A stretch of 64,000 bases of DNA from Pseudomonadota bacterium (GTDB lineage: Bacteria; Pseudomonadota; Gammaproteobacteria; Burkholderiales; Casimicrobiaceae), in the NCBI GenBank assembly GCA_018241765.1, contig JAFEDD010000011.1:56102-120101 (forward strand). The letters are read 5' to 3'. The position numbers were made by a program, and so were the translations under genes. The notes beneath the pieces are model-generated. The model saw only the letters and a program-made list of their open reading frames with translations. It was not told where the DNA came from and searched no databases. Positions 21,462-25,194 of this stretch are shown one piece after another (positions within the stretch are counted from its first letter, which is position 1; every line of letters starts with the position of its first letter).

Positions 21462-23615
21462 ATGGTGGTCGTCCACTCAACCGTTTCTCGCCGCGCGTCA
21501 GCACGCGCCATCTCCACTGTGGCGCCGCGCGTCGTGCGCACGCTGCTGGCGTCGTGCCTTTCGGCCTGTGTATTGACGACCGGTGCCCTTGCCGCGACGG
21601 TGGAGTTCCGTCTCGGGCCGGATCTGAAGGGCCGCGAACAGCGCATCGCCAACCAATTGGCGAAGGAACTCGGTGCCGGCCCCGCCGTCGCGGGCCGCCA
21701 GGGGATGTTCACGATCAGCGCCGCCGACGACGCCAAGGCGGCCGCGATGGCCACCGCGCTGCGCGAACGGGCGAGCGTGTTGTGGGCGCAACCGGCGGTG
21801 TCGGAGGGGCAGATCGAGCGCACGACGCCGGAGACGGCCTATCACTCGCGCGTGATGGCGCTGGTTCTCAATGACGCATCGAGTGCGGCGATGACGGTGG
21901 CGCGGCTGGCCGCGCGCACCGGGCAGGCACTGACGTTGAAGCGTGTCAGCAACGGCAATCGCGCACTGGTCGTGCTGCCGTCGGGGACGACGGCAGCGGC
22001 GCTGGCAGCCGTCACGGTGGCCGCGACGGCTGACGGCAACGTGCGCAGCGCCGAGCGCGTTCGGCTGGTTCAGCATCAATGGCTGCCCAACGACACCATG
22101 TGGGCGCAGCAGTGGTCGCTCGGCACCGGCGTCGGCGGCATTCGTGCCGCGCAGGCGTGGGATCTCACGCCGTCGGGTTCGGTTGCGGTGGCGGTCATCG
22201 ACACCGGCATCCGATCGCATCCCGATCTCGACGCCAAGTTGATGTCCGGCTACGACATGATCAGCGATGCCTTCATCGGCAACGACGGCCACGGGCGCGA
22301 CCCCGATGCCACGGATCCAGGCGATTACGACGACGATCTCAGTTGCTCCGGCGGCTGGGATTTCATGAGCTCATGGCACGGCACGCATGTAGCCGGCATC
22401 ATCGCCGCGTCGACCAACAACGGGCAGGGCATCGCCGGCGTCGCGCCGAATGCCCGCATCGTGCCGGTGCGGGCGCTCGGTCGCTGCGGCGGCACATCCG
22501 ATGACGTCGCCGACGCGATCCGTTGGGCGGCCGGGGTGCCGGTGGCCGGCGTACCGGCCAACCCGAATCCGGTCAAGGTCATGAACTTGAGCCTTGGGGG
22601 CTATGGCCCTTGCAGCGCCAACGAACAGGCGGCCATCGATGCCGCGCTTGCTCGCGGCACGACCGTCGTCGTTGCCGCCGGCAACAGCGCGACGCTTGCC
22701 TCGGACTTCTCGCCCGCCAACTGCCGCGGTGTGCTGGCCGTCGGTGCGACGAATCTGCTCGGCGACATTTCGAGTTACAGCAACTTTGGCGCGGCGGTGG
22801 GCATCTCGGCGCCGGGGGGCGACCGCGGCGATCTGCCCGGCATCCTCTCCACGCTCAATGGCGGCATCACCCAACCGGCCGTGCCGAGCTATGCGACCTA
22901 CATGGGCACCAGCATGGCGGCGCCGCACGTCGCCGGTGTCGTCGCGCTGATGCTGACGCGTGACCCGACGCTGACGCCGGGGCAGGTCATCAATCGCCTG
23001 AAGGCGGGCGCGCGTGCGTTCCCCGCGGCGACCGACTGTGCCGGTGCGCCGGGCGCCTGCGGCGCCGGGCTGCTCGATGCCGCCAACGCCGTCGCGGCGG
23101 TGACCGTGACGCGCGCTCCGGCCGATCAGAGCGCGAGCGCCGAGCGGGCGCGGCTCGTCGAGGTGAACGATGCGCTCACGGGGCGATATGCGTTGATTGC
23201 CGATCCGGTTGAGCTCGCGCAGATGCTCGCCGGCCAGCGAGGCGGCGCGTGGAGTCGTACCGGGCTCGCGGTCGACACGTTCAGCTTCACCGCGCAATAC
23301 AACGGCCTTGCGATTGCGCAGCCGGTGTGCCGCGCGCGGCTCGTTGCCGGGGGCGGGTACGCCTACAGCGCGAGTGTCGAACAATGTCAGGCCTACGCCG
23401 GCAATGCCGGGTGGGCGGTCGACGGCATGGCGTTCGCCGCCGCGCTGCCGACGGGCTGGCTCTGCCCTGGCGGCAGCGTGCCGGTGCACGAGTACGTGCG
23501 TCAGGACGCGCTCGGCTACAACACGCGCAACATGCCGTGGAGCGCGACCGAGGGGCAGCGCATGATCGACGCCGGATGGACGCCGACGCGCGTGGCGTTC
23601 TGCGTGCCGCAGTAG
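21462..23615 (+). CDS. Secreted subtilisin-like serine protease (S8) with C-terminal repeat domain
   Basis: Encodes 717 residues. A long signal peptide (cleaved after about GALAA, residue 45) is followed by a propeptide and the S8 catalytic domain. The triad is D247 (VAVIDTGIRSHPDL), H309 (WHGTHVAGIIAA) and S484 (GTSMAAPHVAGV), with an oxyanion asparagine in VVAAGN. The last 140 residues (after about 575) resemble the DUF5648-type secreted repeat: GRYALIADPVELAQM, WSRTGLAV, VCRARL, EQCQAYAG, W.VDGMAF, CPGG.VPVHEYV and WTPTRVAFCVP. The protein is probably released to the medium. GGGAG (21451-21455) supports the start at 21462. The gene is monocistronic. Confidence 0.92.
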   Translation: MVVVHSTVSRRASARAISTVAPRVVRTLLASCLSACVLTTGALAATVEFRLGPDLKGREQRIANQLAKELGAGPAVAGRQGMFTISAADDAKAAAMATALRERASVLWAQPAVSEGQIERTTPETAYHSRVMALVLNDASSAAMTVARLAARTGQALTLKRVSNGNRALVVLPSGTTAAALAAVTVAATADGNVRSAERVRLVQHQWLPNDTMWAQQWSLGTGVGGIRAAQAWDLTPSGSVAVAVIDTGIRSHPDLDAKLMSGYDMISDAFIGNDGHGRDPDATDPGDYDDDLSCSGGWDFMSSWHGTHVAGIIAASTNNGQGIAGVAPNARIVPVRALGRCGGTSDDVADAIRWAAGVPVAGVPANPNPVKVMNLSLGGYGPCSANEQAAIDAALARGTTVVVAAGNSATLASDFSPANCRGVLAVGATNLLGDISSYSNFGAAVGISAPGGDRGDLPGILSTLNGGITQPAVPSYATYMGTSMAAPHVAGVVALMLTRDPTLTPGQVINRLKAGARAFPAATDCAGAPGACGAGLLDAANAVAAVTVTRAPADQSASAERARLVEVNDALTGRYALIADPVELAQMLAGQRGGAWSRTGLAVDTFSFTAQYNGLAIAQPVCRARLVAGGGYAYSASVEQCQAYAGNAGWAVDGMAFAAALPTGWLCPGGSVPVHEYVRQDALGYNTRNMPWSATEGQRMIDAGWTPTRVAFCVPQ

Positions 23616-23638: not shown

Positions 23639-23644
23639 TACACT
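23639..23644 (+). promoter_or_regulatory. Candidate -10 element of the cysS leader
   Basis: TACACT ends 7 bp before the ATG of the cysteine-rich leader ORF at 23651. If it is a -10 box, transcription would begin at or within a base or two of that ATG and the leader ORF would be leaderless. No good -35 is visible, which lowers confidence. Confidence 0.4.
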
Positions 23645-23650
23645 CGATCC

Positions 23651-23743
23651 ATGAAGATCTCCGCGCGAGCCGACGGCACTTTGCATGACGCAGCACCGTG
23701 TTGTTGTCCGTCGGGGGTGATGCGCGGGTGTTTTCGGCCATGA
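23651..23743 (+). CDS. Cysteine-rich leader peptide of cysS (putative attenuator peptide)
   Basis: A 30-codon ORF reading MKISARADGTLHDAAP, then CCCPSGVMRGCFRP. Codons 17-19 (23699-23707) are three consecutive TGT and codon 27 (23729-23731) is a fourth TGT; TGC would be expected in this G+C-rich genome. The stop at 23741 is followed after 28 bp by an intrinsic terminator, and cysS begins 24 bp after that. The architecture is that of a ribosome-mediated attenuator: scarcity of charged tRNA-Cys would stall the ribosome on the TGT run and change RNA folding downstream. Leaderless poly-cysteine short ORFs with this role are known from mycobacteria. The call is inference from architecture; no homologue was checked. 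Confidence 0.6.
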   Translation: MKISARADGTLHDAAPCCCPSGVMRGCFRP

Positions 23744-23771
23744 CGCGCGTTTGATTTCAGACCCCTCCACC

Positions 23772-23796
23772 AAGGCTGCATCGCGCAGCCTTTTTT
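23772..23796 (+). terminator. Intrinsic terminator just upstream of cysS (attenuator terminator)
   Basis: AAGGCTGC (23772-23779) and GCAGCCTT (23785-23792) form a perfect 8-bp stem with a 5-nt loop, running into TTTTTT (23791-23796). It lies 157 bp after the S8 peptidase stop but only 24 bp before the cysS start, a position that favours attenuation of cysS. It could also terminate the peptidase transcript. Confidence 0.85.
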
Positions 23797-23820
23797 GTGC
23801 CCTCTCTCTGATTGATTGCC

Positions 23821-25194
23821 ATGCCGCTGCGCCTCTACGACACCTGGACCCGCGCCGTCCGCGAGTTCACGCCCCTGAAACCCGGTGAGGTCGGGCTCTA
23901 TACGTGCGGGCCGACCGTCTACAACTTTGCCCACATCGGCAACCTGCGCACCTATCTGTTCGAGGACGGCCTCGTGCGGGTGCTGAAGATGAACGGGTAC
24001 GCGGTTCGCCACGTGATGAACATCACCGACGTCGGTCATCTCGTCTCCGACGCCGATGACGGTGAGGACAAGATGGAGGCCGGCTCGCGGCGCACCGGCC
24101 AGAGCGCGTGGACCATCGCGGCGCTCTACACCGACGCCTTTCGCGCCGACCTTCGCGCGCTCAACATCAACGAGCCGGACGTGTGGTGCCGTGCAACGGA
24201 TCACATCGACGAGCAGATCGCATTCATCGAAGCCATCGAGCGCAAGGGCTACACCTATCGCACGCGCGACGGCATCTACTTCGACACCTCCAGGCAGCCC
24301 GACTACGGTTATCTCGGGCGACTCGACGTCGCCGGACTGCAGGCCGGCGCGCGGGTGGACCTTGGCGACAAGCGCAACGCGACCGACTATGCGCTGTGGA
24401 AGTTTTCCGCGCCCGAGGAAAAGCGCCAGATGGAGTGGGATTCGCCGTGGGGACGGGGTTTCCCCGGCTGGCATATCGAATGCTCGGCCATGGCGCACAA
24501 ATATCTGGGCGAATACTTCGACATCCATTGCGGTGGCGAGGATCACATCACCGTTCATCACTCGAACGAAATCTCGCAGACCGAGGCGGCCTACGGCACG
24601 CGGCTCGCCAACTTCTGGCTGCACGGGTATTTCATGCTGCTGAACACCGCGAAGATGAGCAAATCGAGTGGAGAGTTCCTGCGCGTGCAGAGTCTGATCG
24701 ACCGTCGCTACGATCCGCTCGCCTTCCGCTATCTGTGCCTGACCGCGCATTACCGCTCGCAACTGATGTTCAGCTGGGACGCGCTCGACGCCGCGCAGAC
24801 CGCGCTCGAGCGCTTGCGCCACGGCGTGCATGCGCTGGCCGGCGGGGGCGAGGTCGACGCCGAGTACGCACGCCGTTTCCTCGATCGCGTCAACGACGAT
24901 CTCAATTTCCCGCAGGCATTGGCGGTGATGTGGGAGGTGCTCAAGTCGGCTCTGGCGCCCGCCGTGAAGAAGGCGACGTTGTTGCGCTTCGACGAGGTGC
25001 TCGGTCTGGGCCTTGCGACGTGGTCGCCGAAGGTCGAGGCGGTGCCCGACGCCGTGCGCGCGCTCGCCGATGCACGCTGGACGGCGCGCAACGCGAAGCA
25101 GTGGGCCGAGGCCGACCGGCTGCGCGGTGAGCTCGCGGCGCTCGGCTGGTCGATGAAGGATGGCAAGGACGACTACACTCTGAGCCGGAATTGA
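23821..25194 (+). CDS. cysS: Cysteine--tRNA ligase
   Basis: Encodes 457 residues of the class I synthetase that charges tRNA-Cys. The zinc ligand C29 and YTCGPTVYN, the HIGN signature (38-41), [34 protein letters not shown] and the KMSKS loop ([12 protein letters not shown]) are all present. Length is normal. The ATG at 23821 lies 24 bp after a strong intrinsic terminator, so expression depends on readthrough or on a promoter inside this short gap. The poly-Cys leader upstream suggests control by cysteine supply. The next gene starts 30 bp downstream. Confidence 0.97.

Follow-up and report, generated by a model that had tools for sequence, protein, structure and literature searches.

A conserved cysteine-codon leader upstream of cysS in a betaproteobacterial family: a predicted, probably leaderless transcription attenuator

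Introduction

The trp and his attenuators of enteric bacteria combine leader codons for the amino acid that is sensed, alternative RNA pairing, and an intrinsic terminator. The cysS leader described here shares the first and the last of these elements with them and has a candidate for the alternative pairing. Unlike them, it would sense cysteine, precedes an aminoacyl-tRNA synthetase gene, and probably has a leaderless start.

Cysteine leaders have been described in two other bacterial groups. The computationally described motif uORFC-8-2 has 145 examples upstream of cysS in Rhodobacterales and, as excerpted, is characterized by tandem cysteine codons (two, usually at peptide positions 14–15, within the first stem) and a U run, and is interpreted as likely attenuation (PMC8632094). 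In mycobacteria, a 2005 report, as excerpted, predicted cysteine leaders that lack terminators (PMC1262725), and leaderless polycysteine ORFs are reported to respond to cysteine (Canestrari et al. 2020, as cited in passages of PMC9094748, PMC4633059, and PMC13236596). In a betaproteobacterium, Bordetella, the available text describes a cysteine-containing upstream ORF, CruR, that belongs to the DUF2946 family, carries a CXXC motif and a C-terminal RAPP, and controls copper genes in a Rho-dependent manner (PMC9426467).

The locus analyzed here lies in a window of 64,000 nucleotides (the whole stretch under study) from a member of the Casimicrobiaceae, Burkholderiales. It resembles uORFC-8-2, as far as the excerpt of PMC8632094 goes, in its position upstream of cysS, its short ORF with tandem cysteine codons, the terminator reported there, and the ribosome-mediated attenuation proposed there; the lineage, the type of cysS, and the layout all differ. 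The Rhodobacteraceae peptides have 13–15 residues versus ORFs of 14–35 codons in the genus studied here, and the Rhodobacteraceae cysS is of another type, 35–40% identical to the one here. The terminator at our locus follows the stop codon of the leader, and the candidate antiterminator is at the stop codon, a layout distinct from that in the excerpted description. With the mycobacterial leaders, so far as the cited excerpts describe them, it shares a short ORF with cysteine runs, together with a leaderless start and control of downstream genes by cysteine supply (both predicted here); it differs in phylum, in the genes concerned (cys operons and cysA2 in mycobacteria), and in having an intrinsic terminator, one that the mycobacterial counterparts seem to lack (none is obvious in the excerpt of PMC1262725).

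From comparisons of related genomes, we read this as a conserved cysteine attenuator whose kind is already known but whose lineage, betaproteobacterial, and layout are new. It would add that lineage to the few cysteine-sensing attenuators found among the literature listed, and would connect regulation with the exchange of an essential tRNA synthetase gene for one of foreign type. The initial annotation of the window, made from the single sequence, knew of no description of such a system for betaproteobacterial cysS. Among the matches listed in the open-licence literature we likewise found none for that group; a cysteine uORF at cysS had already been published for Rhodobacterales, as the excerpt of PMC8632094 makes clear.

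Results and discussion

Organization of the cysS upstream region. All features are on the forward strand. A subtilase gene (Peptidase_S8) has its stop codon at 23615 and is co-directional with cysS (23821..25194), the putative regulated gene. It encodes cysteine--tRNA ligase (TIGR00435, 401.9 bits, cut-off 340) and is the sole cysS match found in its genome, which is 90% complete. Between the two genes, a -10 element, TACACT (23639..23644), ends 6 nt before the ATG of a 30-codon leader ORF, MKISARADGTLHDAAPCCCPSGVMRGCFRP (23651..23743). Codons 17–19 of the leader are TGT TGT TGT (23699..23707), the proposed stalling site, and codon 27 is a fourth TGT (23729-23731). A predicted hairpin around the stop codon has its 5' arm, GATGCGCG, at 23719..23726 and its 3' arm, CGCGCGTT, at 23744..23751, directly after the stop codon. 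The candidate antiterminator segment, CGGCC plus TG (23735..23742), overlaps the stop codon and could pair with the 5' arm of the intrinsic terminator (23772..23796). This terminator has an 8-pair stem of AAGGCTGC (23772-23779) and GCAGCCTT (23785-23792), a loop of ATCGC, and a T tract that runs to 23796. The coordinates in the initial annotation for the ORF, the TGT run, the fourth TGT, the terminator, and the cysS start were all correct; the spacer between TACACT and ATG had been given as 7 bp and is 6 nt. The bases from 23797 to 23820 contain no visible Shine-Dalgarno sequence for cysS and are pyrimidine-rich before the ATG, and the relatives in the genus seem alike by eye.

The sequence of the window alone makes a weak case for regulation, because the TGY run, the fold of the leader, and the terminator scan are all near what is expected by chance. 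The genome holds 701 copies of the pattern TGYTGYTGY and 683 of the reversed control pattern, and we rejected the run as evidence by itself. Folding of the leader RNA, a check recommended in the initial annotation, gave a stability like that of shuffled sequence (z -0.38), and a stable leader fold was likewise rejected as evidence. The terminator scan found one site versus 0.5 expected by chance. No Rfam match to a known riboswitch or T-box was found at the leader at E-values up to 1; there were weak matches elsewhere.

The leader is conserved throughout the genus. There were 17 genomes of the genus, all with a cysS match, and we read the upstream region in 16 of them; the other (G010) has a cysS fragment without upstream DNA. 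By inspection, all 16 had an ATG ORF of 14–35 codons, a counterpart of the window leader, followed by a terminator hairpin and then cysS. Each of the 16 leaders had two or three cysteine codons clustered within four positions. A strict automatic detector, requiring an ORF, two cysteine codons in four, TANNNT 4–10 nt upstream, and a terminator with a T tract, accepted 13 of the 16 regions and none of 640 shuffled regions. Failure at the -10 (G012) or at the T tract (G004 and G005) explains the three misses. Because of this conservation (16/16, or 13/16 with the strict detector, versus 0/640), the leader is far beyond chance. The comparison of cysS upstream regions among relatives, which had been called for at the outset, therefore came out in favor of the proposal, with both the cysteine codons and the terminator kept in every readable genus member.

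The conserved property of the leader peptide is its cysteine content. In the 16 genus leaders, cysteine accounts for 75 of the 433 codons in the leader frame; the counts for the two remaining frames are 19 and 17. The peptides are otherwise dissimilar across the genus (for example, MISQCCCRASHRVA and MTKSLSCCCAPICICCCAHRRVCSQ). The cysteine codons comprise 40 TGT and 35 TGC, which removes the weight that the initial annotation had given to the use of TGT rather than TGC. Since cysteine is enriched in frame and TGT and TGC are freely exchanged, it is the amino acid that is kept and not the bases.

The hairpin of the terminator is also conserved. It was found with a T tract after the leader in all 16 genus members, and in 14 of the 16 under a stricter rule for the T tract (the misses were again G004 and G005). 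The arms change in pairs: they are AAGGCTGC and GCAGCCTT in the window, AAGGGCTGC and GCAGCCCTT in G004 and G005, and AAGGCCGC and GCGGCCTT in G016.

The leader probably starts at or near its own ATG. By rule, a six-base gap after the -10 element places the A of the ATG at +1. In 14 of the 16 genus leaders, TANNNT ended 5–9 nt, mostly 6–9 nt, upstream of the ATG; it did so for none of the 93 other ATGs in the leader-bearing regions, and because of this spacing we consider a leaderless start probable. The full set comprised 27 leaders, the 16 from the genus and 11 from outside it, excluding G029 (an N in the leader) and keeping G041 despite its split gene; two mis-cut rows (L103 and L114) were dropped from the survey. 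The spacing held in 25 of the 27. In that count, the -10 had guided the selection of the 11 leaders from outside the genus and the choice of start codon in G006, and the figure that we rely on is the 14/16. The leaders' own -35 elements were poor in the genus (0–3 of 6 consensus bases; 1 of 6 in the window, where none is recognizable) and better outside it (3–5 of 6). Between the leader stop codon and cysS, none of the 27 loci had a -10-like site with a -35 matching at least 4 of 6 positions, and 3 of 27 had any -10-like site.

The best-supported pairing of the putative switch joins bases near the leader stop codon to the 5' arm of the terminator. The mean pairing energy with this arm across the genus had one sharp peak, at -8.4 kcal/mol versus about -5 elsewhere, for segments starting approximately 8 nt before the leader stop codon; there was no such peak for the 3' arm. 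The best partner of the 5' arm started 5–10 nt before the stop codon in 10 of the 16 genus members, versus a null mean of 1.8 (P = 5e-6, from base shuffles that ignore relatedness and for a range picked after viewing the segments). Pairing with the 5' arm was better than in shuffled sequences by Fisher's method, both in the genus (p = 9e-4) and among the 11 outside leaders (p = 1.3e-3), and was stronger than pairing with the 3' arm (p = 0.009 and 0.021, respectively). At one fixed place near the stop codon, chosen after seeing the best segments, pairing with the 5' arm beat shuffles in 15 of the 16 genus members (p = 1e-4); none of these shuffle comparisons allows for relatedness. The 3' arm, used as a control at the same place, also beat shuffles, less strongly (12/16, p = 0.017).

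The segments that pair with the 5' arm are no single inherited word. Partners of the arm, in either of two registers, are GCAGCC, GTAGCC, GTGGCC, GCGGCT, GCCTTT, and CGGCC, and in the ten genus members that share the place, the cysteine run ends 14–42 nt upstream of the segment. In the window, 23735-23742 could form 5 + 2 base pairs with the 5' arm, at -9.0 kcal/mol versus -4.8 for shuffles at that place; when leaders were searched over their whole length, the best 5' arm pairing of the window was no better than that of shuffles (p = 0.45). In the 11 outside leaders, pairing near the stop codon was absent (5/11, p = 0.48), and the different place at which pairing peaked among them (near -24) was not significant (7/11, p = 0.16).

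The segment would often lie in the loop of the stop-codon hairpin. This hairpin, the 23720-23726:23744-23750 pairing of the initial annotation, was better than shuffles in 12 of the 16 genus members (p = 0.002); with another score, Fisher's p was 0.019 in the genus and 0.74 (not significant) outside it. A further proposed pairing, GGGGGT with ACCCCT, was not conserved (10/16, p = 0.096).

Folding was calculated for three ribosome states. At equilibrium, the finished terminator formed in the window at 0.95 in every state, and the genus means (0.81, 0.92, and 0.91) barely separated them. On average in the genus, the 5' arm was sequestered at 0.65 with a stalled ribosome versus 0.25 with a ribosome at the stop codon (p = 7e-4), a contrast that is partly trivial because more of the RNA is open when the ribosome is stalled. 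Sequestration in the stalled state was weakly above that of shuffled leaders in the genus (p = 0.12) and modestly so for all 27 (p = 0.011). For the window, nested folding gave the opposite of the model: upstream pairing of the 5' arm was 0.07 when stalled but reached 0.54 once the ribosome was at the stop codon. Contacts between a loop and the arm are beyond this method.

A model for attenuation and its alternatives. Based on the conservation of the leader, the cysteine codons, and the terminator, we think it highly likely that cysS is controlled by ribosome-mediated transcription attenuation, with charged tRNA-Cys as the signal that is read. Transcription would begin at the leader ATG or no more than a few bases from it, and ribosomes would load directly there. 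With ample Cys-tRNA, a ribosome would reach the stop codon and cover the surrounding bases, and the terminator would form. With scarce Cys-tRNA, the ribosome would stall on the cysteine run and leave the bases just before the stop codon open; these would pair with the 5' arm of the terminator and allow read-through into cysS. The stop-proximal segment is perhaps presented as the loop of the small hairpin around the stop codon. The initial annotation had proposed an attenuator as well, and its core, a cysteine-codon attenuator of leaderless type at cysS, is strongly supported by conservation; the RNA switch that it proposed is supported in part.

In that switch, the sensor is the same and the segment after the stop codon (23744-23750) invades the loop and 3' arm of the terminator. 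We regard this as a rather unlikely mechanism. The predicted pairing itself stood up, with the post-stop segment pairing with the loop and the start of the 3' arm better than in shuffles in 13 of the 16 genus members (p = 0.001), and at -9.7 versus -5.0 in the window. However, the leading edge of a ribosome is at about +12 nt, and one stalled at the cysteine run would end at or before the 5' arm of the stop-codon hairpin at 23719. A stalled ribosome would not free 23744, as had been suggested, because 23719-23726 stays open for the hairpin and 23744-23750 should be bound in it. The lack of conservation of GGGGGT with ACCCCT also counts against this switch, as does the stronger genus-wide signal for the 5' arm. 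Another alternative is polycysteine attenuation at the level of translation or through Rho, as discussed for mycobacteria, with the terminator hairpin incidental. The mycobacterial cys leaders have no obvious terminators in the excerpt of PMC1262725, and a 2026 paper, as excerpted, terms that system translation attenuation (PMC13236596). In this genus, a terminator hairpin follows the leader in 16/16 members, with paired changes of its arms in three, and by inspection cysS has no visible Shine-Dalgarno sequence to mask; we consider this explanation distinctly improbable.

The kind of conservation seen in the leader peptides argues against two further explanations. The leader could encode a nascent peptide with cysteine residues that senses metal or redox state, as CruR of Bordetella senses copper; that case is a cysteine-rich upstream ORF in a betaproteobacterium and works, by the available text, via the CXXC motif and Rho (PMC9426467). 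The peptide sequences here are not kept, only the clustering of cysteine, and by inspection the 27 leaders have no RAPP arrest motif and no conserved CXXC. The gene under presumed control is cysS, the terminator is of the intrinsic type, and a CruR-like sensor is very improbable. It would be extremely surprising if the ORF were a chance frame and the terminator simply that of the S8 peptidase gene, with cysS driven from elsewhere. TGY triplets are common in the genome and the upstream gene is co-directional, but the 16/16 conservation, the cysteine enrichment, and the promoter spacing all speak against chance. Furthermore, by inspection, leader and terminator also lie beside another upstream gene, with an acetyltransferase-like end, in G030 and G017.

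Our preferred reading, attenuation by a ribosome reading cysteine codons, can be tested directly with the 27 natural leaders and with a sister pair, one with the leader (G017) and one that has lost it (G039). In G039, TACCAT is found 123 nt before cysS, and no leader ORF follows it.

The leader accompanies a distinct type of cysS in the family. The cysS of the window is 61–66% identical to that of eight outside loci, four of them Chloroflexi, and 35–42% identical to the ordinary type found in other families of Burkholderiales. The two types separated (SH-aLRT 100) in a quick tree of 80 proteins, with long branches flagged. Among the 43 other genomes of the family, one (G044) had no cysS match and one (G059) was not included, leaving 41 upstream regions; we accepted leaders in 11 of these, two with a single cysteine codon, and the strict detector accepted 8 of the 41. 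In the quick tree, each of the family's three deep branches contained leaders. The strict detector found none upstream of ordinary Burkholderiales cysS (0/12). The simplest reading would be that one foreign cysS and one leader were present in the ancestor of the family, with several losses since. In 17 of the 30 family members outside the 27 leaders, a -10-like site lies 37–75 nt before cysS, a spacing that would fit a collapse of the leader and terminator that once separated the promoter from cysS. A fuller account, which we offer tentatively, is that a non-native cysS, nearest to that of Chloroflexi, replaced the native gene in the ancestor of the family and came under a purpose-built leaderless cysteine attenuator, whose antiterminator is in the loop of the stop-codon hairpin and would be erased by the terminating ribosome. 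By inspection, no cysteine leader was found in five Chloroflexi-type relatives that might have donated it (L126–L130, four of them Chloroflexi).

Cysteine leaders also occur in unrelated bacteria. The strict detector found none at other loci with the same type of cysS (0/26 and 0/21); leaders were nonetheless visible by eye at four of them. One, in a MAG labelled as Aliivibrio sp. (L134), lies approximately 175 bases upstream of a distant cysS that is also of this type; the leader, MTIFNASYNDSCCCCKFTFTAAFT, is accompanied by a terminator-like hairpin and has TAGTTT six bases upstream of its ATG. The others (L195, L196, and L094 of G307) have very short leaders ending in cysteine codons, MTIQFINFYCCC, MRLFGFNVYCCR, and MMITYPMLFYCCR, about 115–130 bases before cysS; two of these records are named Alphaproteobacteria and the third genome groups with them. 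One genome from another family of Burkholderiales (G066) has both a native-type and a foreign-type cysS (L076, L080), and a cysteine leader, MLTFFLFFSRPRVCARCCRCTTLMQRA, was seen before the foreign-type gene only. In all five cases (L134, L195, L196, G307, and G066), a -10-like site lies 4–10 nt before the ATG.

We surveyed Alphaproteobacteria more broadly, reading 90 cysS upstream regions from 141 genomes with a match. ATG ORFs with adjacent cysteine codons were found in 17 of the 90 regions versus 34 of 1800 shuffles. By eye, most resemble chance frames in coding DNA and few look real (two Rhodobacteraceae and perhaps G593 and G588); therefore the trait is patchy. Among 12 Rhodobacteraceae, cysteine-rich leaders were readable by eye in 11, and a strict TANNNT preceded 2 of these 11; the strict detector, with its required T tract and TANNNT, accepted 0 of the 12. 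The Rhodobacteraceae leaders may likewise start leaderless. If a start at the ATG holds there and in the unrelated leaders above, leaderless initiation would belong to the mechanism of cysteine attenuation itself.

In the genus, the search was extended to cysE and cysK, covering 900 bases upstream of the family match (203 at one cysE locus). A promoter-spaced ORF with two nearby cysteine codons was found before none of the 16 cysE or 16 cysK genes. ORFs with adjacent cysteine codons and no promoter were found before one cysE and two cysK genes when 420 bases were read.

Two variants were seen within the family. In the genus g6 (for example, L053, L058, and L060), the genomes are small and without the leader, and a consensus -10 sequence, TATAAT, lies 46–66 bases before cysS in 9 of the 10 regions read. 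The last 75 bases before cysS in L054 (G047) contain a possible minimal version: a leaderless-looking ORF that begins MSSCRRCS, with its cysteine codons, on inspection, in or beside a terminator-like stem and its frame continuing toward cysS.
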